Part shown: positions 34,532-50,222 of the stretch, piece by piece | Position numbering within the stretch: the stretch's first letter is position 1 | How the letters are laid out: the number at the start of each line of letters is the position of its first letter | Assembly: GCA_022793375.1 (NCBI GenBank) | Contig: JAAWCS010000032.1 | Location: 1 to 61,917, forward strand | Reading direction: 5' to 3' | DNA: 61,917 nucleotides | DNA from: Lachnospiraceae bacterium | GTDB lineage: Bacteria; Bacillota; Clostridia; Lachnospirales; Lachnospiraceae | Made by a program: the position numbers and the translations under genes | Notes under the pieces: model-generated | Database searches by the model: none | The model's input: the letters and a program-made list of their open reading frames with translations, nothing else | What the model was told of the DNA's origin: nothing

Positions 34532-35644
34532 CTATCTTTGCTTCAAATATCCGCCGTACACCCATCCGATATACACGCCGGCAATCCGCAGCCGATACCA
34601 CAGCCGGCCGTTAGGCGCCGGCGCTTCGCCGATCACCTCTACCTCATTGCCGACGCCTAGCATCGGCCAGTCTGCCAAAATCTCTTTATCCACGCCGGGG
34701 CCGGTACGCACATTGGTGGCAGGCTCGCTGCAGATGGCCGGCCATTCCCGGTAAGCCGACGTGATCCCGTCGATCTGGCTTTCGTCTTTGCCGGGTACGA
34801 TCTGTAAATCTTCCGCCTTTGCCCAGCCCTGCCGGACGCCGCCCGGTGTTTTGGCCACTCCCCAGCAGTAGGGATAACGGTCGCCGGCATAGTCCGCAAT
34901 GTACATCGTGGCGCCGATTTTGGGAATCCCGGTCCCTTTGCCTGTCCCGGCGCCATAGATGGTACCATTCACCTGCACCTTCGTGCCGACGGACAGGTCG
35001 GCCGGATCAGTGTCCGCATTGAGAGCGTTGTCCTCTGCCGGTTCCTCTCCGACCGCCGGCTTCTTGGAGGTCAGACCGCAGTCCTGCCTGAGCCAGTTCA
35101 GAATTCCCTGAACCGTTTTCTTTGCATGTGCGTCGGTAATGATAATCGGCGTATCGGACGCGCTGTCCATAAAGCCGTTTTCGACCAGGTAGGCCCGCAT
35201 TTTTGTATTTGCCAGCACATAATATGCTTTTCGGACTACTTTGCTGCTGCGGTTGCCGGTCCGCTGCGTCTTGGCCACAATCTGCTCATAAAGGCGTTCG
35301 GCCAGCTTTCGGCCGGTTTCCGTCGTACAGTCGTGGTATACGACCGTCCCCCCGCCAGTGCCGCCGCCAATGCCGGCGTTATGGTGCATGCTCAGATACA
35401 AGTCTGCGCCCCAGCCGTTGGCCTGCGCCACCCGGATCCCCAGACCAACGTCCTGGGCACCGGTCGTATCGTCGACGCGCAGAACTTCGCAATCGTAATT
35501 CCGCAGCTCCTTCTCCAGCTTGTCCATAATCCGATCGTTCAGCTGCCATTCCCGGGTCTGTGCCGGGTCAAACGTTTCCAGGCAGCGCCGGCCCGCGGTG
35601 TGCAGGCCGTGGCCGGCGTCTAATGCGATTTTCATTTTACTCAT
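34532..35644 (-). CDS. N-acetylmuramoyl-L-alanine amidase (tailocin endolysin) with SH3 domains
   Basis: This 370-residue lysin has an N-terminal Amidase_3 domain (IALDAGHGLHTAGRR, DLYLSMHHNAGIGG, VENGFMDSASDTP; about 1-175) with the zinc His/Glu residues. A middle SH3-like cell-wall domain follows (about 205-290), and a C-terminal SH3b has VRTGPGVDKEILADWPMLG. It overlaps the holin gene by 8 bases, so the two form the lysis pair that would release the tail particles. Confidence 0.92.
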   Translation of the reverse strand: MSKMKIALDAGHGLHTAGRRCLETFDPAQTREWQLNDRIMDKLEKELRNYDCEVLRVDDTTGAQDVGLGIRVAQANGWGADLYLSMHHNAGIGGGTGGGTVVYHDCTTETGRKLAERLYEQIVAKTQRTGNRSSKVVRKAYYVLANTKMRAYLVENGFMDSASDTPIIITDAHAKKTVQGILNWLRQDCGLTSKKPAVGEEPAEDNALNADTDPADLSVGTKVQVNGTIYGAGTGKGTGIPKIGATMYIADYAGDRYPYCWGVAKTPGGVRQGWAKAEDLQIVPGKDESQIDGITSAYREWPAICSEPATNVRTGPGVDKEILADWPMLGVGNEVEVIGEAPAPNGRLWYRLRIAGVYIGWVYGGYLKQR

Positions 35645-35867
35645 CGTCGTCTCCCTCCTCTTCTCCTACTTCCGGCAGACCAGTAGCCACCGACGTAAGT
35701 AGCGATAAAATCCCGGACAACACTGACGCCGATACTACCATCCGCACATCCACAGCGCTCAATACTACTGCTGTCCCAATTGTGGCGACAGCTGTCTGTG
35801 CTACCGTCCTTACTGCCCGCACTCCCGCTGCCTGTGCCCAGGTTGTCCAATACTTCTTATCTTTCAT
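35637..35867 (-). CDS. Holin
   Basis: This 76-residue protein from ATG 35867 (AAAGAGGAAAGAG upstream) begins MKDKKYWTTWAQAAGVRAVR. Two hydrophobic stretches follow (TAVATIGTAVVLSAV and MVVSASVLSGILSLLTSVAT), and the tail is acidic (EVGEEEGDDDE). Size, topology and its place directly before the amidase identify a phage holin of the type found in Clostridia. Confidence 0.85.
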   Translation of the reverse strand: MKDKKYWTTWAQAAGVRAVRTVAQTAVATIGTAVVLSAVDVRMVVSASVLSGILSLLTSVATGLPEVGEEEGDDDE

Positions 35868-36123
35868 GCTCTTTCCTCTCTTTCTCCAGATCTGCGATCC
35901 GGTGATTAGCAACGTTGATTTTTTCTTCCATTACTGCCTGCTTTTCTTCCAATCTGTCCACGCGAACATCCATAACGGCGCAGTTATCGCACTGTTTTTT
36001 GAGTTTTTCTTCCAACTGCGCAACACGATATGTAAGAACCCTCGCGCTGCCAACAACTCCGATAACGGAGCCGCAAAGACTTCCAATCAGGCCAACAAAA
36101 GCAACTAGCAATTCGTTTGACAT
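35857..36123 (-). CDS. Small XhlA-like membrane/coiled-coil protein
   Basis: This 88-residue protein has an N-terminal transmembrane segment (LLVAFVGLIGSLCGSVIGVV) and then a long charged coiled coil (AQLEEKLKKQCDNCAV, DRLEEKQAVMEEKI). It overlaps the holin start by 11 bases. Similar small proteins accompany holins in PBSX-type lysis cassettes (XhlA), although there the membrane segment is at the other end. Role in lysis is inferred from position. Confidence 0.65.
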   Translation of the reverse strand: MSNELLVAFVGLIGSLCGSVIGVVGSARVLTYRVAQLEEKLKKQCDNCAVMDVRVDRLEEKQAVMEEKINVANHRIADLEKERKEHER

Positions 36124-36158
36124 GATGTCACCTCCAGAAACTTAATCAGTTAATGTTT

Positions 36159-38105
36159 TTAGTAAGAAACGGTTACAATCTTATCAATTGTTATTTGTCC
36201 TCCCGAGTAGTTGTTTCCGGATACAGTAAACGAAGAAAATCTTACACCCAAATTCGCGCTTCCAACCCAAGGCTGTATATAGCTATCGTTATTGATCGAA
36301 AGCAAGGGATTTGTAAATACATATATTCCAAGCCTAGCATACCCGTTTGCTGTCGGGATTTTGAAACGCCACCATCCGATTCCTGTTATTTGCCCGATTA
36401 CTGGGTGAGGAACGCCTCCTAAAGTACTAGAAGGAGTCATTTGCCCTTTGTTCATCACGACCTTACATATAACAGCACTAAATAATGTTACATGGATATA
36501 TACATACTGAGAGCCAGTTATATAATATTCTGTATGGGATTCTGGAATTTGTACGATACCCGTACTCCAAGAATTGCTGGTATTATACCCATCCTTTGCC
36601 ACCCCTTTTACATATACTGGAATAACTATATCGCTGTCTTTGAACATATACACAACCGTTCTTGTAACTGTCGTCGTCCGGCCAGCGTTGTCAGTTACGA
36701 TTACTGTAATGGTGTTTGCACCAGTTCCTCCAAGCGTAATCGTCCGGCTCCAAGTTCCATTTGCCGCCACTGAAACCGCCACGCCATTTACAGTTAAAGA
36801 CCGCAGGCCGGATGCGTCCGACGCTGTACCAGACACCGTAACATTGGCGCTTGTTACAACTGCGTTATTTGCCGGCGCCGTCACCGCCAAACTCGGCGCC
36901 GCGCTGTCATAACGCACATACCGGGTTACCGTTGTCGTCCGCCCCGCATTATCGGTCGCCACCACCGTTACCGTCGTCGTGGTATTGGCTGTAAGCGAGA
37001 TGGCTTTGCTCCACTTCCCGCTGCTTACACTGGCCGCCGAGCCGTTGACCGTCACCGATTTAATCCCCGACGCATCCGACACCGTTCCGCTCACCGTATA
37101 GGAGGCCCCTGTCGTATAGGTCGGCGATCCGCTGGCCGTACCAGTAGGCGCCGTCACCGCCAAACTCGGCGCCGCGCTGTCATAGCGTACATACCGGGTT
37201 ACCGTCGTCGTCCGCCCGGCATTATCGGTCGCCACCACCGTTACCGTCGTCGTCGTGTTGGCTGTGAGCGAGATGGCTTTACTCCACTTCCCGCTGCTTA
37301 CGCTGGCCGCCGAACCGTTGACGGTCACCGACCTAATCCCCGACGCATCCGACACCGTGCCGCTCACCGTATAAGACGCTCCTGTCGTATAGGTCGGCGC
37401 ACTGCTTGAAGTGCCGGTCGGCCCCGTCACCGCCAGGCTGGGGGCCGCGCTGTCATAGCGCACATAGCGGGTTACCGTCGTCGTCCGGCCGGCGTTGTCC
37501 GTCGCCACTACCGTTACCGTTGTCGTGGTATTGGCTGTGAGCGATAGTGTCTTACTCCACTTCCCGCTGCTTACGCTGGCCGCCGAGCCGTTGACGGTCA
37601 CGGACCGGATCCCCGACGCATCCGATACCGTGCCGCTTACCGTATAGGAGGCCCCTGTCGTATAGGTCGGCGAACCGCTGGCCGTACCTGCCGGCGCCGT
37701 CACCGCCAGGCTCGGCGCCGCGCTGTCGTAGCGCACATAGCGGGTAATGGCATCGGTCCGATTCCCTGCCTTGTCCGCCGCATACACCTGCACTGTCGCC
37801 GTCGTGTTTGCCGCCACCGTAATATCCTTGTACCAGGTATTCCCGCTGAGCACGGCCGCCGAATCATTTACATATACCGCCGCCACACCGCTTTCGGCAT
37901 CCGACACGGTCCCCTGCACGCGATACGTTGTCCCGGAGGTATAATAGGTGGGAGCCCCGCCGGCCGTACCGGTCGGGGCCGCAACGGTCAGCGCCGGCGC
38001 GGTGCTGTCATATTGATAGAGCAGACGCCCCTCACTCCAAACCTCTGAGATAATATTCCCTTCAAATAAAATGCATTCTAAATCGTCGCACACGATCCCT
38101 GCCAT
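36159..38105 (-). CDS. Tail fibre / receptor-binding protein with Ig-like repeats
   Basis: This 648-residue protein has a 31-residue N-terminal segment, then five Ig-like domains (about 32-480), each starting YDSxAPxLxV. Domains 2-4 are nearly identical 91-residue units. The last 170 residues (from MFKDSDIVIPVYVKG to the end) are unrelated and AT-rich. It lies between the small tail protein and the lysis genes, where tailocin fibres are coded. The tip probably binds the target cell surface and so sets killing range; this is inferred. Start ATG shares one base with the previous stop. Confidence 0.75.
   Translation of the reverse strand: MAGIVCDDLECILFEGNIISEVWSEGRLLYQYDSTAPALTVAAPTGTAGGAPTYYTSGTTYRVQGTVSDAESGVAAVYVNDSAAVLSGNTWYKDITVAANTTATVQVYAADKAGNRTDAITRYVRYDSAAPSLAVTAPAGTASGSPTYTTGASYTVSGTVSDASGIRSVTVNGSAASVSSGKWSKTLSLTANTTTTVTVVATDNAGRTTTVTRYVRYDSAAPSLAVTGPTGTSSSAPTYTTGASYTVSGTVSDASGIRSVTVNGSAASVSSGKWSKAISLTANTTTTVTVVATDNAGRTTTVTRYVRYDSAAPSLAVTAPTGTASGSPTYTTGASYTVSGTVSDASGIKSVTVNGSAASVSSGKWSKAISLTANTTTTVTVVATDNAGRTTTVTRYVRYDSAAPSLAVTAPANNAVVTSANVTVSGTASDASGLRSLTVNGVAVSVAANGTWSRTITLGGTGANTITVIVTDNAGRTTTVTRTVVYMFKDSDIVIPVYVKGVAKDGYNTSNSWSTGIVQIPESHTEYYITGSQYVYIHVTLFSAVICKVVMNKGQMTPSSTLGGVPHPVIGQITGIGWWRFKIPTANGYARLGIYVFTNPLLSINNDSYIQPWVGSANLGVRFSSFTVSGNNYSGGQITIDKIVTVSY
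36912..37730 (-). repeat. Three near-identical 273-bp tandem repeats in fibre gene
   Basis: Units at about 37458-37730, 37185-37457 and 36912-37184 code for Ig-like domains with only a few amino acid differences (for example TLS/AIS and IRS/IKS). Such repeats can expand or contract by recombination and are also a risk for short-read misassembly. Confidence 0.9.
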
Positions 38106-38332
38106 CAGCTTCCCGCCTTCCGTACAAAATAAATCACGCCTTCTTCCGGTTCTGCCGGTCTTTCGTCCACAATCCGCAGACTGCAGCCACTTAGCGCCGC
38201 GTGCAGTACCAGCGTATTCTCCAACAACTGCTTAGGCGCTGCATTGATAATGTCGGCATGTGCCGGATCGGAGGTTTCCGTAATGCGGATTGTCTCCGAA
38301 AATTCCGGTGCGCTGCTTGTATAATCCTTCAT
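38105..38332 (-). CDS. Small tail-associated protein
   Basis: This 75-residue protein contains ITETSDPAHADIINAAPKQL and ends PAEPEEGVIYFVRKAG. The DPAHADxxNxxxKQL phrase is common in small phage proteins encoded beside tail fibres in Firmicutes. It may link fibre and baseplate. Its stop overlaps the fibre gene start by one base. Confidence 0.6.
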   Translation of the reverse strand: MKDYTSSAPEFSETIRITETSDPAHADIINAAPKQLLENTLVLHAALSGCSLRIVDERPAEPEEGVIYFVRKAGS

Positions 38333-38349
38333 AATAATTCCCCTTCTCT

Positions 38350-38739
38350 CTAAAATACATCGTCCAGGACAAAGGTCATTTCCAAGTCCTCGTCCTTACC
38401 CTTGGCCTTAAACGTTTTAATGCACACCATATCTCCATCTGCGTCATATAAACCGATTTCGCTGATCTCCTGGTTTGCAAGTTCTGTTTTCTGCAGGGTA
38501 CATTCATACCGCACCGTTGCCGGCTCATTTTCCAGCAGGGAATAGAACTCAATTTCTTTACGGCCTAATTCCGAAAGCAACTGCTCCTGATCTTCTGTGG
38601 GCGCGATGACTTCCCCGGATTCGTCCACGCCGCCAGAGCCAAACGCCATTCCCGCAATCGGCGGAAGATTCGCCGCCCCCGCTCTTGCCAATACCAATTT
38701 CCTTCTTGCCTTCTTTGTTATTACAACGTTACTCGCCAT
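38350..38739 (-). CDS. Phage tail-collar/fibre-type protein
   Basis: This 129-residue protein begins MASNVVITKKARRKLVLARA and has an IAGMAFGSGGVDESGEVIAP motif, then ELANQEISEIGLYDADGDMV. This pattern matches the N-terminal domain of phage tail-collar fibre proteins, which attach to the baseplate. It starts directly after the YmfQ-like gene. Confidence 0.7.
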   Translation of the reverse strand: MASNVVITKKARRKLVLARAGAANLPPIAGMAFGSGGVDESGEVIAPTEDQEQLLSELGRKEIEFYSLLENEPATVRYECTLQKTELANQEISEIGLYDADGDMVCIKTFKAKGKDEDLEMTFVLDDVF

Positions 38740-39675
38740 TTATAATTCCTCCTTTTTGATTTCGGCGTTTAAAAGTTCCGTTTCGTCCAACCGCTTTGCT
38801 CCGTTAAGATACCACAGATTTTTCCGTATGATTAGGCCGGAGCGTATTCCTGGCGTCGCCGCCGATTGTCCGGCGTAAATCCTTATCGTTCCTCCTCCCT
38901 CTGTTTCTGCCGCCTTCCAAAACCGGAGCAGAAACCGGCAGATTCTCAAATTTCCCTTTGCCGCTCCCTTTAAACAACGGCCGGCATACAAACGCATCCT
39001 TTCAACCGCCGGTTCGTTGTTTTTTGCAAAATGCCACCCCGCCAATATCAGACGCGGATGCAGGGATTGGCCCCGATTGGCATCTAACAGCTTTTTCCCA
39101 TTTAACGCCCAGGCGCCATCCAGAAAATGACATAACCACCAAAACGTCAATGCCGTACCTATGCGCATCCGTGAGCCGCGAAACCGCTCCAGCCGAGAAT
39201 GGTCCAGTTTTGCTACCTTTGTCTTGATTACCGCCGTCAAATTGCAGGGAAGCATATCGCTTATTATTTTTTTCACTTCCCAGGCCAGATTAAATACGTC
39301 CCAGACAATCCCGATCTCAAGCTGATACTCCGCGTATCTTTTCGTAAACCAAAAATGATTCTCACCGCACAGAAGCGTCAATTTTTCAAAGAGCATTCTT
39401 TCGGTATACGGCGGGCTGGCAAACCATTTGCCGAGGATTCTTTTTCTCCGTTCCTCAAGGGTATCCTTCTGTGACGGGCAAAGTCTCAGCAGCTTCTCAA
39501 ACCTTGAAATCCCATATTCATCTGCCGTGGCAATAAATTCATTTGACAGCGCCCGGTCGGCAGCCCTCCACACAAGGGCAAATTCCGGATCCTCCGCTTC
39601 CAGAGCGGCTTTGAGCTCCCTGTACTCTGCCAGGAAAGGAGGCAGATAAGAGACAAGGTCGACCTCTCTTATCAT
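38740..39675 (-). CDS. Baseplate wedge protein, YmfQ/XkdU (DUF2313) family
   Basis: This 311-residue protein has residues 1-155 matching the DUF2313/YmfQ family (SYLPPFLAEYRELKAALEAE, TADEYGISRFEKLLRLCPSQ, ERRKRILGKWFASPPYTERM). The last 130 residues carry repeated LxxxxWHFxKNNE and INRxLxR-like strands, perhaps fibre-attachment. It overlaps the baseplate J gene by 4 bases and follows the PBSX order XkdT-XkdU. Confidence 0.85.
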   Translation of the reverse strand: MIREVDLVSYLPPFLAEYRELKAALEAEDPEFALVWRAADRALSNEFIATADEYGISRFEKLLRLCPSQKDTLEERRKRILGKWFASPPYTERMLFEKLTLLCGENHFWFTKRYAEYQLEIGIVWDVFNLAWEVKKIISDMLPCNLTAVIKTKVAKLDHSRLERFRGSRMRIGTALTFWWLCHFLDGAWALNGKKLLDANRGQSLHPRLILAGWHFAKNNEPAVERMRLYAGRCLKGAAKGNLRICRFLLRFWKAAETEGGGTIRIYAGQSAATPGIRSGLIIRKNLWYLNGAKRLDETELLNAEIKKEEL

Positions 39676-40874
39676 TCGTTCACACCCCCAAATACCGGAA
39701 TTTCATATTCCCCCAAATATAAATTCTCGCTCATTCCATTGATGGAAGTCCCCCGCACATCTACCACGCCAGGGACGTTCAATAAGCGATTCTCAACCTG
39801 GCTTACTCTTACAATCAGGCAAGAAGAATCCGCCCACTCTTTTCTTAACTCCAAAAGATAGTCGCAAACGGCTTCTTCCAGCAAACCTTGAAGGTTTCCC
39901 CACCCGTACCCTTCCTCAAACGTCAGCGTTGATTGTATGTCAATCCGTTTCTCCTTTGCGCTTTTCACCTTCACCACATGGCCGATCGGGGCCAGTCCAT
40001 AACCGTCCCCCGCTCCCTCCTCCGGATCAATGGCCGTCTGGACTGCCTGCACAAGCGTCTCCGATGCCCTTCCGAATTCAGAGTTAAGGATCGTCAAAAG
40101 CACCGTGCCGCCGGTTGTCAGCTTCTTCTCCTTTGCGGCATGAAAAACGGCCTCCAACCAATCTCGTACTTCTTTTGGCGCCGTATCCTTAATGCTTTCA
40201 TACCACTTACAGACGTTTTCCTTTGGTATCATGTCGGCCGGACGGATATCTGCGTTCCAAACCCTTGTTACCTTCGTCCTGCCCACGCCGGGGATCGCAT
40301 TCACCTTTTCCAGATAATCCGCCCGGTTCCCGCCAAAAGCGCTTTCGCTGAAAGAGTCAAAATATCGCTTCCGCAAATCCTCCGTATCCTCTTCATCTTC
40401 TCCCGGAATCAGGATTTCCGTCAGCTGCGCGCTTTGCAGTCCCTTGATATATTCCATCGGGATCATGCTTCCCATATACTGGTTTCCCGCAATTCCGGGC
40501 GATTCGCACATCACCCGGTATTCCCCGTCCGCAATCTTTTCCTGCACCGTATAGTTCATCTCGCCGATATTGAACCGCCGCCCGGAAACGTCTATATTGG
40601 CCGGCGCAAATACCCCTTTTAATATCGCATGTGCGGCCGGATAAGGAGAAATCCCCCGTTCCCTGCACCGCAGAACCAGGAATTCCCGCGAAGCCGTATC
40701 GCCATAGCCCTCCTTTAAAATCGTATCCAGTTCCAGATACAAAATCTGCAGTTCAATCGCTGTGGGCGAATGTGTGTCCCAGATTACCGATCCTTCCCTC
40801 TTGTCAAATTTATCCGCCACACGGGCAAGCATCCGGTCGCGGATTGCTTCATACGTGGTATCCTCGTACATCAA
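39672..40874 (-). CDS. Baseplate J-like protein (XkdT)
   Basis: This 400-residue gpJ-family protein has IWDTHSPTAIELQILYLELD, the DRMLARVADKFDKREGSV start, and the FAPANIDVSGRRF, IPGEDEEDTEDLRKRYFDSF and FGGNRADYLEKVNAIPGVGR blocks of the family. It builds the contractile tail baseplate. Genes overlap by 4 bases on both sides, so the baseplate genes are translationally coupled. Confidence 0.93.
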   Translation of the reverse strand: MMYEDTTYEAIRDRMLARVADKFDKREGSVIWDTHSPTAIELQILYLELDTILKEGYGDTASREFLVLRCRERGISPYPAAHAILKGVFAPANIDVSGRRFNIGEMNYTVQEKIADGEYRVMCESPGIAGNQYMGSMIPMEYIKGLQSAQLTEILIPGEDEEDTEDLRKRYFDSFSESAFGGNRADYLEKVNAIPGVGRTKVTRVWNADIRPADMIPKENVCKWYESIKDTAPKEVRDWLEAVFHAAKEKKLTTGGTVLLTILNSEFGRASETLVQAVQTAIDPEEGAGDGYGLAPIGHVVKVKSAKEKRIDIQSTLTFEEGYGWGNLQGLLEEAVCDYLLELRKEWADSSCLIVRVSQVENRLLNVPGVVDVRGTSINGMSENLYLGEYEIPVFGGVNE

Positions 40875-41275
40875 AAATTCACCTCTCTTCCGGCCTGCAC
40901 ATCCCCAAAAACGGTATGCGCGGTAAATGTCACAAAGACGACGCCTTTTTGCGGGAAATCAAATTCAAAGGAATCGACGCTCCGGATCCGGCTGTCCGAC
41001 AATAATGCTTCTGAAATCCGCCGTTTTAATTCCGGGCATACATATGTCACAGGCTCGCCAAAAAGGTCCGCCAATTCAATCCCGTAATTCCAGCTGTACA
41101 AAAGGTACTGGTAGCGTTCGGTCATAATGGCTTTATATATGGCCTGCTTTACCGCTTCCAGCCCGTCTGCATACCCGCGGATATGCCCCTCCTCCCCCTG
41201 CATCTTGTAGGTAAGGCTCGGCTGTTCCTCGATTTCAAAATCCTGATCTAAAAATCCAACGGTTGAAGGTATCAT
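40871..41275 (-). CDS. DUF2634 baseplate protein (XkdS / gp25-like)
   Basis: This 134-residue protein reads YKMQGEEGHIRGYADGLEAV, then QAIYKAIMTERYQYLLYSWN and YGIELADLFG, the DUF2634/XkdS pattern. XkdS is the equivalent of T4 gp25, at the hub end of the sheath. Overlaps with both neighbours are 4 bases. Confidence 0.92.
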   Translation of the reverse strand: MIPSTVGFLDQDFEIEEQPSLTYKMQGEEGHIRGYADGLEAVKQAIYKAIMTERYQYLLYSWNYGIELADLFGEPVTYVCPELKRRISEALLSDSRIRSVDSFEFDFPQKGVVFVTFTAHTVFGDVQAGREVNF

Positions 41276-41673
41276 TTTTTCCCTCCGATCCGGTCCAATA
41301 CGATAAATTTCTGGCCCTCCTGCTGTCGTATAAGAATCACCTCATCTCCTGTTTCGGGGGCATTATGGACAACGATCTGCTTTTGCCCTGAAATCCGATG
41401 TCTATGCGTTTCAGATGCCGTCCCCTCCTCACCGCCCTCTTTATCCTCCGTTTCCCAGCTTACGCTTATCATCGTAACGAAATCCGTAACGTTTCTTGTC
41501 AAAATAAGCTGGTTTTCGCCGAGGACCATCTTCTGTTCTACGTTAATGTTCAGCGGTGATTTCGAGATAACCTCCCCAAAATACACCTGAACAGGCTTTG
41601 ATGCTTCCCGCTCCTCCCGCGAAGCTTTTTTCATCGCTTCCACAAGCGCATTTGCATCAGCCAACAAACTCAC
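41272..41673 (-). CDS. DUF2577 tail protein (XkdR)
   Basis: This 133-residue protein starts MSLLADANALVEAMKKASRE and has VQVYFGEVISKSPLNINVEQ and EVILIRQQEGQKFIVLDRIG, the DUF2577/XkdR type. It is a small beta-rich baseplate component of PBSX-type tails. It overlaps the XkdQ-like gene by 17 bases. Confidence 0.9.
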   Translation of the reverse strand: MSLLADANALVEAMKKASREEREASKPVQVYFGEVISKSPLNINVEQKMVLGENQLILTRNVTDFVTMISVSWETEDKEGGEEGTASETHRHRISGQKQIVVHNAPETGDEVILIRQQEGQKFIVLDRIGGKK

Positions 41674-42651: not shown

Positions 42652-43341
42652 TTAAACAGCCGGGATTGTAAGCACCTGTCCCGGATAAATCCGGTTCGGG
42701 TTGCCCCCGATCACGTCTCTGTTCGCATTATAAATAACCGAATACTTTGAGCCGTTCCCGTAAAACCTTTTTGCAATGTTCCAAAGGCAGTCGCCTTTTA
42801 CTACTGTGTAACTCTGCGCCTCAGCCGGCGCCGGAGAGCCGGTTGTCTCCCTCTGCGGATCCACACTCGCCTTCGGCTTTCCCGCGTTAAAAGCGATGCT
42901 TACCGTTTTTGTCCCGTAATCCCGCCATTGTTTCAGCTTTATATCGATCAGAAGATCAAATCCGTTCTTCGCATCTTCTGAAATTTTGTATTCCTCCATA
43001 GATACCTTGATATTGGTATCAAAAAGCTTCTTCCCCGTTGGCTTTTTCCGACATACAATGAACTGGAACGGTTTTTTGCCTGTTTTCAAAGACTCAAAGT
43101 AATCCAGAAAATACTCCGCCTCCTTAAACCCCGCTTTATAAACCGCAAACGGGTACTTCTCCTGCGGGATTCTGCATTCAAATTCAATGTCGGTTAGGCC
43201 CGCCTTTTTCAGGATATTGATTTCCCCTTCGTTCATCAGCGTGACCGTCTCATTCGCATTGTTGATTTTCAGCGTAAGTTTAGAAGGGGAGATCGGCAGC
43301 AAGCATTTCCCCAGATAAAAATCGTATCCGCTTTGTCCCAT
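42652..43341 (-). CDS. LysM tail protein (XkdP)
   Basis: This 229-residue protein has an N-terminal phage domain ([20 protein letters not shown]; about 1-160), a short linker, then a LysM module (about 178-229: [30 protein letters not shown]). In PBSX-type tails XkdP is thought to sit at the baseplate or spike, with LysM touching peptidoglycan. Its start abuts the tape measure stop. Confidence 0.92.
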
Positions 43342-45801
43342 CTAATCATGCACTCCTTCCGTTGAAACAGCAATCGCCTCATTTACAGCCTCCGTCATTC
43401 CGGAAATCACGCCGTCTAAATCCATCCCTTTGCTGATATTATTGTTGTTTGTCTGTTCAATCGTAATTTCAGCCGTTGTAAAGCGGTTGATCGTCTCCTG
43501 CTCCGCAAGGTCCCGCAGGTATTTTAATTCTTCTCCCGTTATTTCCATGCTGTCAGCCATCCTTCCGGTATTCCCGGAAATATCGCCAACTCCGCTCCCG
43601 ATCTCTTCAAGTCCCGTCTCGTAATTACTCAAATCCGTATAATCTTCGGCCTTAGGAAGGGCGCCGTTAAATAAAGACATCAGATCGAGGTTTGCTATAC
43701 TTTCATCGATCCCTTCGCCGAAGGAATACCCGGCCTCCCACGCCTCTTTATACTCAAAACGATCTACGTGAAAGCCGGAGGGGTCTATTTTATCCATAAT
43801 TTCTTCACCTTGCCCGAAGGTTTCATCCACCCACCCGGACAAGGAGCCGCGCCATCCGGAGACGGCGCCGGCAAGGTTTGAGCCAAAAATCGCATCGATC
43901 GCACCCGCAAGGGATTCTAACAGAGCAAGGACCGTGTCAACCAGGTCGAAAAACAAGCGGGCAATCGCCCCCACCGGATCATAAAATACATTTCCAAAAA
44001 AATTTACAAAGGCGGCTATAAAATTCCAAAGCACTGCGAAAAGGTCTATCGCAAAGTTAATTAACGCGACAAACAGATTTCCGATCCGGGCTGCCACCCC
44101 CATAAACACGCCGCAAATAATACCTGTCGCGGAAACCGATGTCCCCGCAAACTTATTTACCGCCGCTACCGCCGCATAAAACACAGCGATCAGCGCAATG
44201 ATTGAGATAATAATCCAGACAATCGGGCAGGCAAACATAGCGGAATTCAATCCCCATTGTGCCGCCGTGTCCGCCATCGTCGCACCGCTTAACAGCGCGT
44301 ACACGGGCACCGCCATCATCTTTGCAAAGCTCAGCGCTCCCTGTGCCGCCGCTGCGGCCAGCGCCGCCCCTTTTGTCAGCAGCAGCCAGCCATAATAAAC
44401 GGCCAGCGCACCGGCGACGCCGTAAACAAGGGGGGACAGCCACGACCAGTTTTCTTCTAAAAGCCCGGCTCCGGCAGACAGCAGATCAAAAATCTGCAGC
44501 GCCATGCCCGCGGCAATCGCCAGGACCTCCATTGCGCCATTTACAAGCTGCTGAAACGCTTCGCTGTTTGCGATCTCATTTAACCGCTCCAGAATCGGCT
44601 GAAATGCTACCAGCGCCGCATTCTGAAACGAGGTCCCGATCTGCTCAAATGTTTTCGGCATACTTTCAAGTTTTGCATTTGTCTCGTCCGCCGCCGCAAA
44701 CAGGGCGGCTTTCACAATATCCGCAGAAATCTGTCCTTTTGCCGCCATGTCCTCCAATTCCGCTTTCGGCACTTCCAGATAATCGGCAATCGCCTGAATA
44801 ATGTTCGGGGCTTTCTCCAGAATGCTATTGTATTCTTCACCTTGCAGAACCCCCGAAGCCATCGCCTGCGTCAGCTGCTGCATAGCCGCGTCCATGTCCG
44901 CCGTCTCTGTCCCGGCAATCACGAACTGCTTATTCACCTGTTCCGTAAAGGCAATGATTTCTTCCGAACTGCCAAACGCGTCCCCTGCCGTAAGTCCTAA
45001 CTGTGAGACCGCGTCAGCCGTTGCCTGATAGGAACCCCTCGCCCTTTCCGCAGAAAGGAAAATCATGTTCTGCAAATCCCCCGTTGTTTGCAGCCCGTCA
45101 TTCATTGAATCCAGACGCGCAGAGGCGGCAGTCAGCTGATCGGATAAGTTCAAAACATTTGAAAGCGTTTCCGGCGTCACATAATCGGCAGCTATCCCGC
45201 CAATTATACGCATCGGACTATTCGCCCCGCCCTCGATCGCCTGGTTCAGCCGCCCTTGTTCATCCACATTGTCCCGAATATATCGTTCCGTGCCGCCGAT
45301 TGTTTGCTGCAGCCGTAAATAAGCCTCATTTGCTGCCTGAATGTCCCATGCATCCATCGCCTGATTCAGTTTCTGCTGTTCCCGGACAGCCTGATCCAGC
45401 TGCCCGCGCAGCATTTCCAATCCCGTATTGGCAGCGTCCGTCCCCATATTTAACGGATTGCTCTCAAACTGCTGAATCCGGTTTCTTACAAGGTCGATCC
45501 TCACAGCCATTCGGTTTAGCTCCTGAAACGCCTCCGGCGGCAAAACATGGGTGTTATATGCCCGCTTTGCGATCGCATCCTGCGCCGCGCTTAGCCTCTT
45601 TAGCAGGGCATTTGTACTCTGCACCTCCTGTTCAAACCGTTCCACGCCCGAATTCGTGAAAACCTCCGGACCGCCGGATTGCCATTGAACCGGAAGCACG
45701 ATCGGCGCCGGGCTCCAGGAATCTATTATCTGATATAAGGCACCCGTAAAATTGTCTTGTAATTCTATAGCCGCCTGAATGCTCTCCACGCGATCACCCA
45801 C
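43342..45801 (-). CDS. Tape measure protein (XkdO)
   Basis: This 819-residue protein has the tape measure domain near 210-420 (LSNVLNLSDQLTAASARLDS, GYN-type EEYNSILEKAPNIIQAIADY) and several hydrophobic segments near 430-640. It also has a C-terminal helical region. It sets tail length, and the modest size implies a short tail. Start is GTG 45801 or, 4 codons in, GTG 45789, which AAAGGTGG fits better. Either way it overlaps or abuts the frameshifted chaperone end (45794). Confidence 0.93.
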   Translation of the reverse strand: MGDRVESIQAAIELQDNFTGALYQIIDSWSPAPIVLPVQWQSGGPEVFTNSGVERFEQEVQSTNALLKRLSAAQDAIAKRAYNTHVLPPEAFQELNRMAVRIDLVRNRIQQFESNPLNMGTDAANTGLEMLRGQLDQAVREQQKLNQAMDAWDIQAANEAYLRLQQTIGGTERYIRDNVDEQGRLNQAIEGGANSPMRIIGGIAADYVTPETLSNVLNLSDQLTAASARLDSMNDGLQTTGDLQNMIFLSAERARGSYQATADAVSQLGLTAGDAFGSSEEIIAFTEQVNKQFVIAGTETADMDAAMQQLTQAMASGVLQGEEYNSILEKAPNIIQAIADYLEVPKAELEDMAAKGQISADIVKAALFAAADETNAKLESMPKTFEQIGTSFQNAALVAFQPILERLNEIANSEAFQQLVNGAMEVLAIAAGMALQIFDLLSAGAGLLEENWSWLSPLVYGVAGALAVYYGWLLLTKGAALAAAAAQGALSFAKMMAVPVYALLSGATMADTAAQWGLNSAMFACPIVWIIISIIALIAVFYAAVAAVNKFAGTSVSATGIICGVFMGVAARIGNLFVALINFAIDLFAVLWNFIAAFVNFFGNVFYDPVGAIARLFFDLVDTVLALLESLAGAIDAIFGSNLAGAVSGWRGSLSGWVDETFGQGEEIMDKIDPSGFHVDRFEYKEAWEAGYSFGEGIDESIANLDLMSLFNGALPKAEDYTDLSNYETGLEEIGSGVGDISGNTGRMADSMEITGEELKYLRDLAEQETINRFTTAEITIEQTNNNNISKGMDLDGVISGMTEAVNEAIAVSTEGVHD

Positions 45802-46422
45802 CTTTCTTTCCCTTTTTAGCCTTGCGTTTCATCTCTTTTTTCTGTTCCTTATCGCTCTTAATTTTTACTTTGATCGCCGCTACGACAAAGGCTTTTTCCT
45901 GTTCCTCCATTTCCAGAAAAACGGACGGAAGGATATGTAATTTCAGAAGAGCATAGTAAGCAAAATTCGCTTCCCAATCCCCTTCCTCAATTAGTTTTTT
46001 GCTTCGTCCACCTTATCCGAGAAGGAAACATCAAATCCCTGGAACTTCTGCACAAAGGAAGCCAGATCGTTGTATTCGCCCGGATTGTCGACCATGGCAA
46101 GCAATAAATCCTCCGGCGTCATAACGCCATACGAATCCTGCAGCTCCTTATCGTACAAGTCCGGAACAACCACCGACGCAACGATCATCTTCTGGGCATA
46201 AAGACCGGACTTTAATTTCTGCCGGAACATATTCGGCTTACCGGTAATGGGAACCTCTACCGTGCAGTCCTCGCGGATCGCTTCGTTCTCCTTTGATGTA
46301 ATGTGCCGAAACTCCCATTTAAGGGCCGTCCCGTTCTCGTCCACAAGGGACTTTGTGGCCGGGTAAAAACCGTTCTCCTTCTTAATTTTATTTGCCTTCA
46401 TAAATCTGCTGAATTTAGACAT
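45794..46422 (-). CDS. Frameshifted long tail assembly chaperone (GT form)
   Basis: A -1 ribosomal shift at A-AAA-AAC (minus strand, 45994-46000), directly before the zero-frame TAA, would join the 143-residue XkdN-like protein to a second frame. That frame reads LIEEGDWEANFAYYALLKLH, ILPSVFLEMEEQEKAFVVAA and a lysine-rich end, stopping at TGA 45794-45796. The product has 209 residues. Paired short and long tail chaperones made by a -1 slip between tube and tape measure genes are a conserved feature of long-tailed phages. The second frame has no start codon of its own. Confidence 0.85.
45991..46422 (-). CDS. Tail assembly chaperone, short form (XkdN)
   Basis: This 143-residue protein of the XkdN/YqbN type (SKFSRFMKANKIKKENGFYP, LKWEFRHITSKENEAIREDC, YGVMTPEDLLLAMVDNPGEY) ends DKVDEAKN at TAA 45991. 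The last codons GCA-AAA-AAC form a canonical slippery heptamer. It binds the tape measure during assembly. The gene lies between the tube gene and tape measure, as expected. Confidence 0.9.
   Translation of the reverse strand: MSKFSRFMKANKIKKENGFYPATKSLVDENGTALKWEFRHITSKENEAIREDCTVEVPITGKPNMFRQKLKSGLYAQKMIVASVVVPDLYDKELQDSYGVMTPEDLLLAMVDNPGEYNDLASFVQKFQGFDVSFSDKVDEAKN
45994..46000 (-). promoter_or_regulatory. -1 programmed frameshift slippery site
   Basis: Minus-strand A-AAA-AAC, in the correct phase (codons GCA AAA AAC TAA). After a -1 slip the next codon is CTA and the frame stays open for 66 codons. Confidence 0.85.
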
Positions 46423-46502
46423 TTTTTCATTCTCCTTACTTTTTTCTCATGTCCCCCCCCCATAAAGCCTTATCACGATGCCTTACAAGGGGGTGACGAT
46501 TT

Positions 46503-46982
46503 TTAGTTGGTTAGAAACCCTTCCAGGTCTTTAAAGGCTTCCGGCATTTTGAAATCTTCAAACGTAAATTCCATCTCTTCCTCCAAATACTCGCCGTCGG
46601 CGTCAAATTTTGCCAGTATGCCGCCGTTGATGTTGCAGTCCATCAAGATCATCGTCTGCCGGCCGGCCGCGGAAGTCTTATCTTCGTTGGAAATCTGTAT
46701 CTCAAAATACATATCCTCCCCGGTATCCTTATACTGGATCATCATCTGCCGGAAGATCGAAGTATTGTAGTGGAAAGTCGCACTGCCGGTCCCCTTCCAC
46801 CCGGAGGCCTTGTTCCCCCTCCCGGTTTTGCCCAAAATAGGGACCTCCGTCTTATTCTTCTCGAATTTTGCTTCCAGGTTGATCGCCTGCATGAAATTGT
46901 ACCGGCGCGCCCCGATCGTGATAAAACACTCTGCCAGCGCCGCAAATACGGTATCCTTGGCTTTCATTGTCACATTCGACAT
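46503..46982 (-). CDS. Tail tube protein (XkdM)
   Basis: This 159-residue protein of the phage tail tube XkdM/YqbM family has AKDTVFAALAECFITIGARR, NFMQAINLEAKFEKNKTEVP and GKTGRGNKASGWKGTGSATF motifs. It forms the inner tube of the contractile tail. It follows the sheath gene by 17 bp in the usual order. Confidence 0.94.
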   Translation of the reverse strand: MSNVTMKAKDTVFAALAECFITIGARRYNFMQAINLEAKFEKNKTEVPILGKTGRGNKASGWKGTGSATFHYNTSIFRQMMIQYKDTGEDMYFEIQISNEDKTSAAGRQTMILMDCNINGGILAKFDADGEYLEEEMEFTFEDFKMPEAFKDLEGFLTN

Positions 46983-46999
46983 ATCCTCTCACTCCTTTT

Positions 47000-48310
47000 C
47001 TACGCTACTGTGCAAACCATATATAATTGGCTCATAGCATTCACTACCGTTACAAAGTCCGATACCACCACGGACTTCTTTGTATCCCCCTGCTCTACCG
47101 TCACATCGGCATCCGAGAAATTTTCAATCGCCCGGATCGCCTGCAGCTGTTCGTGGTGCTTCACGATATCCGACCAAAGGGAAATACGCCCCGCCGCATC
47201 GTTCGGAACAACCCCAAGGTACTTTGTGTTAAAAAGCACCGCAATATCGTTCCCGATCTGGTCGATCACACGGACCGTCTGATTTTCTCTAAATGCGGCC
47301 CCGATCGTCTCCAAGGTCGTGACCATCGTATTGATGTCCTCCAGTACCCGGATGTCCGTTCCCACTTTATGGAAGGTAAACTTCCCTTCCCGGATCGCTG
47401 CTTTCAGCTGGTTCTGCGTATACGGGGTATCGACCTTGAAGTTTCCGTCATACTTTTTATTCTGGTTGCTTTTATTGACCGCGCATCCGCAGGAAGCCCC
47501 CGTCACCCAATAAACAAGGCCCGCTTCTCCAAAGCCTTCGTCCAGAGTCTTATTATTGACGCTGATTACGCCCATGTAATCCGCTTTCGCGTAATCGTAA
47601 AGGACAAGCTGGAACTTCACGCCCATTTCATCGCGCATGCGCTTTACAAAAGCGGCAAAAAGGGCTTTTGTCGTATCGTCCGTTACCGCAGCGCCCATCG
47701 TATGAAACGTATATGACTCAATCTTATCCAGATAGGCCTGGTAGTCCGCTCCGCTTACCTCTCCGTTTTCACCCCCTGTCAGGGGAGCCGCCGCTGTCGC
47801 TTCGAGGACGATTCCATCTTTCCACCGCACGTATTTGTTCGCTGTCAATTCGTCTGCCGCTGAAACGGTCTGTTCGTCCACAACGACTGTTCCCAAAATG
47901 GTTTTCACATCAAACAGACTTTCATTGTCCGCATTGATCTGAATGGAAATTTTCAGATCATTCCCGCGCACTCCGGAGTAAAGCGCTTGTGCGAAAGCGT
48001 TGCCGGCCTTCTTCCCTTCTCCATTCAGCCGATACCCATAAAGTGTATTCGCGTTCAAAAACAAGTCCCTGAGCCCTTTTAATTTGTCGCTTTCATACTC
48101 ATATCCGAAAATCTCTCTGCTGTTCTCCCGAAACTCCCAGCTTGTCACCTCAAAAATCTCTCCGGAAACTCCCCAGTCCAATTCCAGAGGCATCGTCGCA
48201 ATCCCTCTCTCGGAAAGCCTCCCGCTTGCCGCCGTCTTTGAAACAAAATTGACATAAGCACCCGGCAATTCCTTATTCTGCGCCAAAAAAGTACCTCCGC
48301 CTAAAGCCAT
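47000..48310 (-). CDS. Tail sheath protein (XkdK)
   Basis: This 436-residue contractile sheath subunit starts MALGGGTFLAQNKELPGAYV and contains GVSGEIFEVTSWEFRENSRE, GYRLNGEGKKAGNAFAQALY and the C-terminal polymerising domain (LEDINTMVTTLETIGAAFRE, VLFNTKYLGVVPNDAAGRIS). Its presence identifies a contractile (R-type) tail. AAGGTGAAGTAGG precedes ATG 48310. Confidence 0.95.
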   Translation of the reverse strand: MALGGGTFLAQNKELPGAYVNFVSKTAASGRLSERGIATMPLELDWGVSGEIFEVTSWEFRENSREIFGYEYESDKLKGLRDLFLNANTLYGYRLNGEGKKAGNAFAQALYSGVRGNDLKISIQINADNESLFDVKTILGTVVVDEQTVSAADELTANKYVRWKDGIVLEATAAAPLTGGENGEVSGADYQAYLDKIESYTFHTMGAAVTDDTTKALFAAFVKRMRDEMGVKFQLVLYDYAKADYMGVISVNNKTLDEGFGEAGLVYWVTGASCGCAVNKSNQNKKYDGNFKVDTPYTQNQLKAAIREGKFTFHKVGTDIRVLEDINTMVTTLETIGAAFRENQTVRVIDQIGNDIAVLFNTKYLGVVPNDAAGRISLWSDIVKHHEQLQAIRAIENFSDADVTVEQGDTKKSVVVSDFVTVVNAMSQLYMVCTVA

Positions 48311-48311
48311 C

Positions 48312-48998
48312 CTACTTCACCTTACCTTTCATATAATTTTCCATTTTTTCCTCCGCGGTTTTGATCGTGTAAGTCTCGCTTTCATCAAGAAGAGCCTCCA
48401 GGATATCCTTCCTTTCCCGAAAACGCTCCGAGGAAACCAGCTGTTCTTTTGAAAATAAAAGTCCGCTTTCTCCTGTATCCGGCGCTCCCTGCGTTTTGCT
48501 TTTTCCCACCGTTCTTTCACCTGTCCTTTCTTCATATTTTCTCGTGTTCTCAGGGCATAAAGGCATGCCCTCGCCATGTTTCAACTGGGTTTTGGAAGAA
48601 ACCTCCTCTAAAAGCGGAATTGGCTCGCTCACCCTGCAAACAAACAGATCGTAATTCACAAAAAAGTGAAGGATCCCATCAACTATTTCATACTCCATTT
48701 TTGTCCCCATCACCGGATCGCCGCCCACATCCAGCCATTCAAGGCAGGAGAAAAGCCGTTCTGCCACCGCATGGCATTCCTCTCTTTTTCCCGAACCGCC
48801 CGGGAAATAGTGGATGCAAAAGGGATTTTTTCTGAAATACCGCTTATTTAAAAACAGCCGGCTTGCGGGGGTGAGGCAAAGCACCCAAAAACAAGGCTCT
48901 GTCAATTCCTGCTTCTTTTCTTCCCTGTGGATTTGATATGCCCCGCCAAACTCAGTCTCCAGAGAAACACAAATCGCTTCCAAGATCGAATTTATCAT
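48312..48998 (-). CDS. Tail terminator-like DUF6838 protein fused in frame to a YqzN/YkzM-type domain
   Basis: This is a 228-residue frame. Residues 1-135 (INSILEAICVSLETEFGGAY, YFPGGSGKREECHAVAERLF) are of the DUF6838 tail-terminator type. Residues 165-228 (FSKEQLVSSERFRERKDILE, then MENYMKGKVK) are of the small YqzN/YkzM type that normally forms a separate gene before the sheath. The joint (about 138-165) is coded by a copy of the dispersed repeat (GMPLCPENTRK). An internal GTG at 48509 with AGGTG upstream could start a separate 65-residue YkzM-like protein. Whether one or two proteins are made is open. First gene after the tailocin promoter. Confidence 0.75.
   Translation of the reverse strand: MINSILEAICVSLETEFGGAYQIHREEKKQELTEPCFWVLCLTPASRLFLNKRYFRKNPFCIHYFPGGSGKREECHAVAERLFSCLEWLDVGGDPVMGTKMEYEIVDGILHFFVNYDLFVCRVSEPIPLLEEVSSKTQLKHGEGMPLCPENTRKYEERTGERTVGKSKTQGAPDTGESGLLFSKEQLVSSERFRERKDILEALLDESETYTIKTAEEKMENYMKGKVK
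48535..48581 (-). repeat. Dispersed SD-hairpin repeat inside tail gene
   Basis: Minus-strand GCCCTGAGAACACGAG matches the repeat core but has lost the second arm (CGAG for GGGC). ATG-CCC-TGA is present out of frame. It lies just upstream of the possible internal start at 48509, in the same relation to a gene start as the other copies. Confidence 0.7.
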
Positions 48999-49011
48999 TC
49001 CATGTACCTCG

Positions 49012-49077
49012 CTAAAAATTAAAAACGCTACACATGGCCTTCGCCTGTTACTGTCTCTCGTTCGGCGCTCTTGCCAT
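49012..49077 (-). pseudogene. Relic of terminase small subunit start
   Basis: With a very strong ribosome site (AAGGAGGTGA) 7 bases before ATG 49077, the frame reads MARAPNERQ, stop (TAA 49048-49050), then QAKAMCSVFNF, stop. MARxPxER(x)QAKAM is, as I recall, how small terminase subunits of Firmicute phages begin. The gene is cut off here and the next gene is the tail terminator, so all packaging and head genes are missing between them. Confidence 0.5.
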
Positions 49078-49156
49078 GTCGGGTCACCTCCTTATTTCCA
49101 ATGATCCTGAACGTTTCGTCCAAGATGTCAAACCTGCGGTTTTTCTCTTTATGATG

Positions 49157-49185
49157 TTGACAGGAAGGAGAAAATATTCTATCAT
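49157..49185 (+). promoter_or_regulatory. Promoter toward ImmR repressor
   Basis: TTGACA (49157-49162) and TATCAT (49180-49185) with a 17-bp spacer on the plus strand, about 165 bases before the repressor start. Its spacer and -10 are covered by an operator-like dyad. Confidence 0.65.
49167..49182. promoter_or_regulatory. ImmR operator candidate 4
   Basis: GGAGAA-AATA-TTCTAT is the same dyad type as the three sites at the tail promoter, and lies within the repressor promoter. Confidence 0.6.
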
Positions 49186-49260
49186 AGTAACAAGCAACAC
49201 GAAAGTATTCTTTTACAGCCGCTTATATTGGCTTTTCCCTGGCTGGGTTTGTGATGTTTA

Positions 49261-49276
49261 CGAGATTTTTTTCTCC
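49261..49276. promoter_or_regulatory. ImmR operator candidate 3
   Basis: CGAGATTTTTTTCTCC is a dyad with 15 of 16 bases shared with the site at 49325. It lies just downstream of the minus-strand -10 box of the tail promoter. Confidence 0.7.
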
Positions 49277-49287
49277 TTACATCCTCT

Positions 49288-49316
49288 ACTATACGAGAAT
49301 ATTTTCTTATTGTCAA
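49288..49316 (-). promoter_or_regulatory. Main tailocin promoter
   Basis: Minus-strand TTGACA (49311-49316) and TATAGT (49288-49293) with a 17-bp spacer. It reads into the terminase relic and all tail genes, and is flanked and overlapped by operator dyads. Confidence 0.85.
49294..49309. promoter_or_regulatory. ImmR operator candidate 2
   Basis: CGAGAATATTTTCTTA occupies the spacer between the -35 and -10 boxes of the tail promoter. Its centre is 33 bp from site 3 and 31 bp from site 1, about three helical turns each. Confidence 0.7.
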
Positions 49317-49324
49317 GTCTTTTT

Positions 49325-49340
49325 CGAGATTTTTTTCTCG
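49325..49340. promoter_or_regulatory. ImmR operator candidate 1
   Basis: CGAGA-TTTTTT-TCTCG is a perfect dyad just upstream of the tail promoter -35 box and 18 bp before the repressor start codon. Confidence 0.75.
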
Positions 49341-49358
49341 TATTGAAAGGAAAATGGT

Positions 49359-49769
49359 ATGACGCTAAAAGATCGCATCAAGGCACTTGCAAAAAAACGC
49401 GGAATAAGCCTGCCTGTTTTAGAAGCTGAATTGGGATTTGGCAACAGCACTATAGTCAAATGGGATAAGTCCGTACCAAACGCAGAAAAATTAAATTCGG
49501 TAGCAAAATATTTTGATGTGAGCATGGATTATTTGCTTAACGGGACCGATAAAGATGGGCTTAACGAAAAAGACAACAAAGACATTGCAAAGGATTTAGA
49601 AAACATTATGTCTAAGCTGTCCGCCGGTGAAGATGGTCCCGCCAGTTTCGAGGGAACCGATATTCCCGAAGAGGATCTGGAGCTTTTTGCCGGGCAGGTT
49701 GAACTTATGCTCCGCAGGCTGAAAGCGATCAACAAAGAAAAATATAATCCGCATAAAAACAAAAAGTAG
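49359..49769 (+). CDS. ImmR/Cro-CI-type repressor
   Basis: This 136-residue protein has an N-terminal XRE helix-turn-helix (LKDRIKALAKKRGISLPVLE, FGNSTIVKWDKSVPNAEKLN, YFDVSMDYLLNG) and a C-terminal helical part. It has no LexA-type protease domain, so it is not self-cleaving. The next gene encodes an ImmA/IrrE protease, the pairing known from ICEBs1 and many prophages, where the protease removes the repressor on induction. It faces away from the tail genes across a region with four dyads. ATTGAAAGGAAA precedes ATG 49359. Confidence 0.9.
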   Translation: MTLKDRIKALAKKRGISLPVLEAELGFGNSTIVKWDKSVPNAEKLNSVAKYFDVSMDYLLNGTDKDGLNEKDNKDIAKDLENIMSKLSAGEDGPASFEGTDIPEEDLELFAGQVELMLRRLKAINKEKYNPHKNKK

Positions 49770-49778
49770 GTGTGATAT

Positions 49779-50222
49779 TTGAGACGAGATATTCACAGTA
49801 TAGTCAATCAGTATATAAAACGCTTTAACAGCCGGAATCCCTTTGATATCGCTAAATATCTAAACATTCAAATTCAGATCGGCCCTCTTGGATCGCGATG
49901 TGGATATTATATGTATTTGAAGAAACATCGCTGTATCTTTTTGAATGAAGATCTCTCGGAAGAAGAGATGAATTTAGTAATGTCACATGAATTAGGACAT
50001 GCTGTCTTACACAGAAAGCAGAATTGCTATTTTATCCGAAACTACACCCTATTTCTGGATTCAAAAATTGAACAGGAAGCAAATATTTTTGCTGCCGATC
50101 TCCTGATAGACGATGAGCTTTTGAGAGAAGCAAAAGAACGAAATTACACCGACGCGCAGCTGGCCCGGCTAGCCTGCTGTGATCCGGCGTTGGTGAAACT
50201 GAGACTGCGGCAGAGAAGATAA
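49779..50222 (+). CDS. ImmA/IrrE-family metalloprotease
   Basis: This 147-residue protein starts at TTG 49779, 9 bp after the repressor stop. It contains the zinc motif HELGH (VMSHELGHAVLH) and the IEQEANIFAADLLI helix with the third ligand. It would cleave the ImmR-like repressor, for instance after DNA damage, to release tailocin expression. This mechanism is inferred from ICEBs1. Confidence 0.93.
   Translation: MRRDIHSIVNQYIKRFNSRNPFDIAKYLNIQIQIGPLGSRCGYYMYLKKHRCIFLNEDLSEEEMNLVMSHELGHAVLHRKQNCYFIRNYTLFLDSKIEQEANIFAADLLIDDELLREAKERNYTDAQLARLACCDPALVKLRLRQRR

Follow-up and report, generated by a model that had tools for sequence, protein, structure and literature searches.

A headless contractile tail locus, probably an R-type tailocin, in a genome of the family Lachnospiraceae

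INTRODUCTION

R-type tailocins of Gram-negative bacteria, the R-pyocins among them, have no head genes and carry their specificity in the fiber, and tailocins have several independent phage origins, as is known in Pseudomonas (PMC12090994). According to one review, diffocins are the only widely recognized and well-documented R-type tailocins of Gram-positive bacteria, and capsid genes appear to be highly conserved in Gram-positive tailocins (PMC10538166). Diffocins have separate receptor-binding and baseplate attachment proteins, the former varying between strains, and are SOS inducible (PMC4453579); their sheath consists of two domains (PMC6088184). Here we analyze a contractile tail locus with no detectable head genes in a Lachnospiraceae bacterium (genome G000, GenBank assembly GCA_022793375.1). 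The locus lies on contig JAAWCS010000032.1, of which positions 1 to 61,917, a stretch of 61,917 nucleotides (nt), are called the window below.

The original prediction, made from the letters of this sequence, took the locus for a likely R-type tailocin and named diffocins and PBSX as known comparators. With PBSX of Bacillus subtilis the locus shares the gene types that bear Xkd names, and its tube protein finds its best match to a solved structure in XkdM (PDB 2guj, E = 1e-26). However, PBSX builds small heads, into which it packs host DNA, and is for that reason a poor comparator; since no head gene was detected in the window locus or its genome, the locus is not PBSX. R-pyocins and the other Gram-negative R-type tailocins differ in phage ancestry, and in pyocins the regulation is different as well.

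With diffocins the locus shares a contractile tail cluster and a clostridial host. On the side of the differences, it carries lysis genes of its own, and the match of its sheath to CD1363 is weak and partial (E = 1.2e-5, residues 188 to 407); the window sheath is 436 amino acids (aa) long with additional domain II/III models and is not of the compact two-domain type. Judged by sheath type, the locus is not a diffocin. Tailocins of solventogenic Clostridium likewise have a Myovirus-type tail and a lysis cassette in a clostridial background (PMC10538166), whereas capsid genes were not found in the headless Lachnospiraceae loci described below. The kind of system is thus already known, and on the features that can be tested in sequence the window locus fits the R-type tailocins. 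In the open literature we found no paper on headless tailocins of Lachnospiraceae. The interest of the locus lies in its host family, a major one in the gut, in an apparent repeated loss of heads, and in a fiber whose immunoglobulin-like (Ig) shaft carries exchangeable tips.

RESULTS

Seventeen closely packed genes on the minus strand, running from 48998 to 34532, form one tail operon. All 17 are intact open frames, and the gaps between them range from -17 to 80 nt, with a frameshift extension counted. They encode a tail terminator, sheath, tube, chaperone, tape measure protein, six baseplate-type proteins (XkdP, XkdQ, XkdR, XkdS, J, and Gp48), three fiber-region proteins, an XhlA-like protein, a holin, and an amidase. 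The original prediction had placed the locus at 34532 to 50222; the tail operon indeed begins at 34532, whereas 49359 to 50222 holds two plus-strand regulatory genes that it did not mention. When we ran the locus proteins against phage profile collections, as had been proposed, the tail and lysis genes matched, so that the parts named earlier, from sheath through amidase on one strand, were borne out (the XhlA-like match lies below its cutoff). The earlier gene list had missed the tail terminator, the first gene of the operon (48312 to 48998, minus strand, as are all operon genes below; 228 aa; PF20765, E = 5.7e-35). Read from its genes, the set is that of a contractile tail that would be capped and self-released.

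Profiles for the large terminase subunit (TerL; A1), the portal (A2), and the capsid (A3) were derived from relatives within this tail lineage that do have heads. Neither these nor PF05065 and PF03354 gave any match in the window or in the whole 3.42-Mb genome G000; in 14 control genomes, PF05065 matched in 4 and PF03354 in 3. The statement that portal, capsid, and terminase genes are lacking thus held, also for the genome beyond the locus, where their discovery would have told against a tailocin. The other finding named beforehand as refuting, a complete prophage at this site in sister strains, did not turn up either: none of the six other genomes of the genus gave a sheath match, in assemblies whose contigs do not span the site. 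No integrase or replication gene was found among the 20 locus proteins searched, again as predicted. Between the terminator and a tRNA-Lys(CTT) gene that borders the locus (51639 to 51712, minus strand), the only minus-strand open reading frames (ORFs) of at least 60 aa are four of 61 to 77 aa, three of which overlap the regulatory genes. The whole locus gave no match in a near-identity search against 50,697 phage records. With its contractile tail set, its own lysis genes, the lack of any head-gene match, and a variable fiber tip, the locus very probably works as an R-type tailocin, one that would be made under stress, be released by lysis, and kill related cells.

We then asked how such loci are distributed. 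A search with the sheath (cutoff E up to 1e-30) found it in 26 of 397 family genomes, the window's own included. The surroundings were read in 20 of these, G030, G076, G084, G161, G280, and G374 being left out as partial or weaker matches. Eight loci were headless (G000, G409, G393, G350, G390, G063, G173, and G199) and 12 were headed, with G227 and G232 called headed from capsid-like genes that we read there without a TerL or portal profile match at that place. The TerL and capsid profiles matched in none of the eight headless genomes and the portal profile in one (G173, on a different contig). A collection of named genomes supplied 61 loci, 12 headless, 40 headed, and 9 dropped for a short or unclear upstream region; one of them, L111, is the G393 locus again (same contig), and another, the headless L122, sits in the genome record of the named strain Eubacterium sp. 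14-2. Viral contigs returned 80 loci, of which L176 alone entered the tree described next. For L150, with only 1.8 kb of upstream sequence, the headless state is presumed.

We built a tree from 72 sheath rows, 20 headless and 52 headed, after removing a duplicate and a short row. On this tree the headless label required 14 changes, at least 13 of them forced by well-supported branches. With shuffled labels the mean was 17.7 changes, and 12 shuffles out of 500 gave a value no higher than the observed one, which indicates some clustering of the headless state. Headless loci are thus scattered among headed prophages, and a single-gene tree cannot tell whether heads were lost repeatedly or tail modules were exchanged. 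Apparent head-gene scars in three relatives favor loss. In G063 a 71-aa ORF matches a scaffold-like protein of G227 (50% over 46 aa), and in G199 a 186-aa ORF matches the same protein (28% over 120 aa). About 1.7 kb upstream of the sheath in L115, a locus dropped from the tree, a stretch matching TerL residues 9 to 79 passes into a weak MuF-like match, apparently a head deletion caught midway. The E values of all these scars come from tiny databases.

Of the 20 headless loci, 19 retain the tail terminator (L121 is the exception, G350 was judged by eye, and some of these loci had served to build the terminator profile), which is consistent with selection for tails able to be capped when no head is present. 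For three pairs of headless sister loci, the pooled ratio of nonsynonymous to synonymous substitution (dN/dS) in tail genes was 0.126 (3221 codons), 0.110 (2689), and 0.172 (2973); divergence within the third pair is small, and individual genes there go up to 0.63. The tail genes of related headless loci are under purifying selection.

Two adjoining genes lie upstream of the tail operon and diverge from it. The one nearer the operon (49359 to 49769, plus strand) encodes an XRE-type helix-turn-helix (HTH) protein, the predicted repressor (PF12844 [HTH_19], E = 1.1e-7); the other (49779 to 50222, plus strand) encodes an M78 (ImmA/IrrE-like) metalloprotease with the HExxH motif in the form HELGH (PF06114, E = 8.5e-22). 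Among PADLOC profiles, CapH (E = 2e-5) and CapP (E = 7.5e-14) match the two proteins best. Four palindromes of the form GAGA-W5-TTCT, predicted operators, begin at 49168, 49262, 49295, and 49326 (span 49168 to 49338); they are the only exact matches in the window, where 0.04 would be expected. Genome-wide, the pattern occurs 11 times versus 4 for a reversed control, and none of 60 random sequences equaled the array of the window.

Two predicted promoters face each other across this array. That of the tail operon (TTGACA-17-TATAGT, 49288 to 49316, minus strand, 11/12) has palindrome 49295 in its spacer, and that of the regulatory genes (TTGACA-17-TATCAT, 49157 to 49185, plus strand, 11/12) has palindrome 49168 in its spacer, where the palindrome extends to the first base of the second hexamer. 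Both rank among the top three promoter-like sites in the scanned region (33500 to 51800), which holds 29 such sites versus 20.4 (standard deviation, 4.1) in shuffled sequences; the third, a 12/12 match at 50262 to 50291, precedes an AbiD-like gene. It is plausible that the one 11/12 minus-strand match, read from 49316 to 49288, is the single promoter of the tail operon. The arrangement suggests that the repressor would close both predicted promoters and that the protease would open them under stress. PprI/IrrE and DdrO, which form a protease–repressor stress switch, offer a model for such a switch (PMC10904395).

An M78 gene lies divergently upstream in 14 of the 20 headless loci, 7 of which had served to build the M78 profile, and in G199 and L114 an S24-type repressor stands in its place. 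The HTH/M78 gene pair is widely shared, but the operator layout is not. The M78 proteins of headless G409 and G350, which read EELGH at the motif, may be noncatalytic or may use another ligand.

Three fiber genes sit between Gp48 and the lysis genes: one for a tail-collar fiber N-terminal domain as a protein of its own, a likely adaptor (38350 to 38739, minus strand; 129 aa; PF12571, E = 4.6e-8); one for a second likely adaptor of 75 aa (38105 to 38332, minus strand), which has no profile match, its residues 1 to 43 being 63% identical to a 74-aa fiber-region ORF of G227; and one for the 648-aa fiber, the likely receptor-binding protein (36159 to 38105, minus strand; PF09136, five stretches). 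The fiber, the most distinctive part of the locus, has a short N terminus, Ig repeats at residues ~34 to 486 spaced 273 nt apart (one step is 261 nt), and a variable tip at residues ~487 to 648. An AlphaFold2 model of the full fiber had a mean predicted local distance difference test score (pLDDT) of 70.8, with Ig domains that were mostly confident over residues 34 to 486; pLDDT was below 50 for residues 1 to 32 and most of the tip, and the tip modeled alone scored 45.9. With the full model, Foldseek returned the Ig arrays of titin, adhesins, and other proteins at low template modeling scores.

Searching with residues 480 to 648, we found three proteins (P0001 to P0003) that are 96% identical there and are 375, 466, and 557 aa long versus 648 aa for the window fiber, so that the tip-sharing proteins differ in length by steps of 91 aa, one Ig repeat. 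Because they come from contigs of 2.6 to 8.0 kb, the differences in repeat number could partly be assembly collapse. Residues 1 to 60, used as the query, retrieved nine proteins. Four of them (P0004 to P0007) match the window fiber at 326 to 328 of the first 330 residues and have dissimilar tips, with 28 to 33 identities in 100 to 135 aligned positions over their last 150 residues. P0003 is the opposite case, with 70% identity over the first 60 residues and 286/330 matches, but 143/150 at the tip. These patterns suggest that the tip varies as tailocin receptor-binding proteins do and that it would be the part that binds the receptor, and the Ig repeats may serve recombination. Ig fibers of this type gave no confirmed relative among viral contigs; in 17 genomes or records (the window's own and 16 relatives, mostly headless), a search found only the fiber itself and one weak 25% match. 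The tip alone was found in 1 of the 397 family genomes, its own. We saw no convincing inverted repeats at the fiber able to switch it.

Fiber regions of relatives held further genes. In headless G409, a tyrosine recombinase (PF00589; L072:11461-12444) lies between the fiber and lysis genes and may invert fiber parts. In G393 (L074, 3563 to 7321), opposite-strand ORFs resembling spare fiber tips lie downstream of the fiber gene, together with a 20-nt inverted repeat whose arms are 3.7 kb apart, which raises the possibility of fiber switching. Headed G227 carries a reverse transcriptase (PF00078; L067:14047-15171) just downstream of its fiber genes, possibly a diversity-generating retroelement.

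DISCUSSION

Our results are best explained by a tailocin that would work as follows. At rest, the XRE protein is predicted to bind the four GAGA-W5-TTCT palindromes and to keep both its own promoter and that of the tail operon shut. Upon DNA damage or a comparable stress, the M78 protease would become active and cut the repressor, as family membership suggests by analogy with ImmA/ImmR, IrrE/DdrO, and CapP/CapH. One transcript would then yield tube, sheath, baseplate, and tape measure, with the chaperone made in two lengths by a predicted -1 frameshift at a slippery site. The terminator would cap a tail of about 120 nm, taking 0.15 nm of tail length for each of the 819 tape measure residues, and the holin and amidase would lyse the producer. 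Outside, the 648-aa Ig-shaft fiber, held by the 129-aa and 75-aa adaptors, would bind a surface ligand through its exchangeable tip, and, if diffocins and pyocins are a guide, contraction would drive the tube through the envelope and depolarize the target. If so, the headless Lachnospiraceae loci would be narrow-spectrum weapons of commensals, with specificity held in one exchangeable protein.

Could the locus instead be a decaying prophage remnant, accidentally deprived of its head genes and now without a function? The scatter of headless loci among headed prophages is what decay would leave, and so are the scars seen in the scaffold-like pieces of G063 and G199 and in the TerL start of L115 that runs into a weak MuF-like match. 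Decay would not be expected, however, to spare all 17 operon frames together with the regulators, palindromes, frameshift site, and lysis genes, to hold pooled tail-gene dN/dS at 0.11 to 0.17 in three headless pairs, or to keep the terminator in 19 of 20 headless loci, and we regard this explanation as unlikely. Less probable still is a tail-supply module serving another element in the same cell, such as a capsid-bearing satellite or a helper prophage. Capsid-only satellites that borrow tails are known elsewhere, and the window sheath is intermingled with sheaths of headed phages, but no capsid, portal, or terminase match was found in this 92.6%-complete genome. An extracellular contractile injection system delivering a protein effector would equally have a contractile tail without a head, and LysM and Ig domains are present here. 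Clusters of that kind carry AAA+ ATPase and effector genes, whereas the 20 proteins searched include no AAA+ ATPase and no clear effector and the gene types are those of a PBSX-like phage tail with holin and amidase, which leaves this reading a similarly slight chance.

Several observations weigh against the tailocin interpretation or narrow it. The head-gene negative applies to a genome that is 92.58% complete, and A3 does not cover every capsid type: a capsid-like gene of G227, which we found by reading frames, gave no A3 match. With no sheath match in the six other genomes of the genus, carriage of the locus is not fixed there. Large serine recombinases lie upstream of the M78 gene in headless L122 (5217-6818) and L176 (1-1506); not every headless locus has therefore lost its integration gene, and some may still be mobile. 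As to the switch, M78 was undetected in 5 of 20 headless loci (G199, L114, L106, L130, and L131) and could not be assessed in one more, L150; HExxH is present in the window protein and four others, and two of the seven compared deviate. Of the 16 other headless loci that were scanned, none showed an array of palindromes like that of the window; 12 have one copy and 4 have two, and 2 to 13 of 60 random sequences equaled the two-copy loci; the operator part of the switch may thus be peculiar to the window locus. Finally, the word "domesticated" in the original prediction is supported for related loci, the dN/dS values being those of relatives and not of the window's own lineage.

If the separate lines are joined, Lachnospiraceae might repeatedly behead prophages just upstream of the tail terminator and bring the remaining tail genes under the control of a divergent repressor–protease switch; in the lineage of the window, the Ig shaft might then provide homology for recombination by which strains swap tips and change arm length in 91-residue steps. 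We put this forward tentatively, as a combination that is possible yet rather doubtful as a whole.

OTHER FEATURES OF THE LOCUS AND WINDOW

The sheath gene (47000 to 48310) matches PF04984, PF17482, PF17481, PF22671, and phrog_279 (E = 1.5e-128). The terminator gene upstream of it is long in this locus, its residues 181 to 228 matching phrog_966, a separate small phage family; in several relatives, a similar piece is a gene of its own, ~61 to 84 aa, between terminator and sheath. Downstream follow the XkdM-type tube (46503 to 46982; PF09393, E = 4.8e-54) and the XkdN-type tail assembly chaperone (45991 to 46422; PF08890, E = 3.1e-46). The slippery heptamer A_AAA_AAC stands just before the chaperone stop, and the -1 frame is open after it, giving a predicted 66-aa extension (45794 to 45994). 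All 23 loci with a chaperone match, the window included, have a heptamer no more than 10 nt away from the chaperone stop (22 AAAAAAC and 1 AAAAAAT; extensions of 48 to 67 aa); G398, a locus with no chaperone match, stands outside this count.

The tape measure gene (43342 to 45801; PF20155, E = 4.9e-40; phrog_1068, E = 2.8e-215) is followed by those for an XkdP-like LysM baseplate protein (42652 to 43341; PF01476; phrog_380, E = 3e-77), an XkdQ/YqbQ-like protein (41657 to 42637; PF24032, E = 6.3e-110), XkdR/DUF2577 (41272 to 41673; PF10844, E = 9.6e-25), XkdS/sheath initiator (40871 to 41275; PF10934, E = 4.8e-31), baseplate J (39672 to 40874; PF04865, E = 2.1e-45), and baseplate Gp48/YmfQ-like protein (38740 to 39675; PF10076, E = 1.5e-20). 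Beyond the fiber genes lie the XhlA-like lysis gene (35857 to 36123; PF10779, E = 6.5e-5), named a hemolysin in Pfam and which we take to be a phage lysis gene, the holin gene (35637 to 35867; PF16945, E = 2e-10), and a gene for an Amidase_3 endolysin (34532 to 35644; PF01520, E = 4.2e-27) with an SH3-like end (SH3_3 below its cutoff). We rejected a 69-aa ORF at 35641 to 35850 as spurious, the PF16945 holin sitting in another frame, and an ORF at 49034 to 49429, which has no profile match.

At the tRNA-Lys border, a 20-nt piece of the tRNA gene has no second copy in the window at up to three mismatches, so no attachment repeat was seen and the ends of the element were not found. Among the seven genomes of the genus (own included), FNT is present in three and cysK in seven. 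FNT and cysK lie on different contigs in the two sisters that have FNT, and the tRNA-Lys stands beside cysK in one of six sister loci, where the contig ends.

Between the regulatory genes and the tRNA-Lys lies the AbiD-like abortive-infection gene (50378 to 51430, plus strand; PF07751, E = 4.4e-26; PADLOC AbiD, E = 6.7e-34), a likely passenger. Its G+C content of 0.344 is much below that of the tail genes, and it follows the perfect promoter match noted above. Farther off, a low-G+C region (24072 to 28500) holds a histidine kinase and a response regulator, encoded on different strands, with a DUF4368 fragment between them, a domain that occurs at the end of serine recombinases. At 58086 to 60524, an 812-aa protein joins a Lit-type lipoprotein transacylase (residues 11 to 195) to a D-Ala-D-Ala carboxypeptidase of family S11 (residues 316 to 548).

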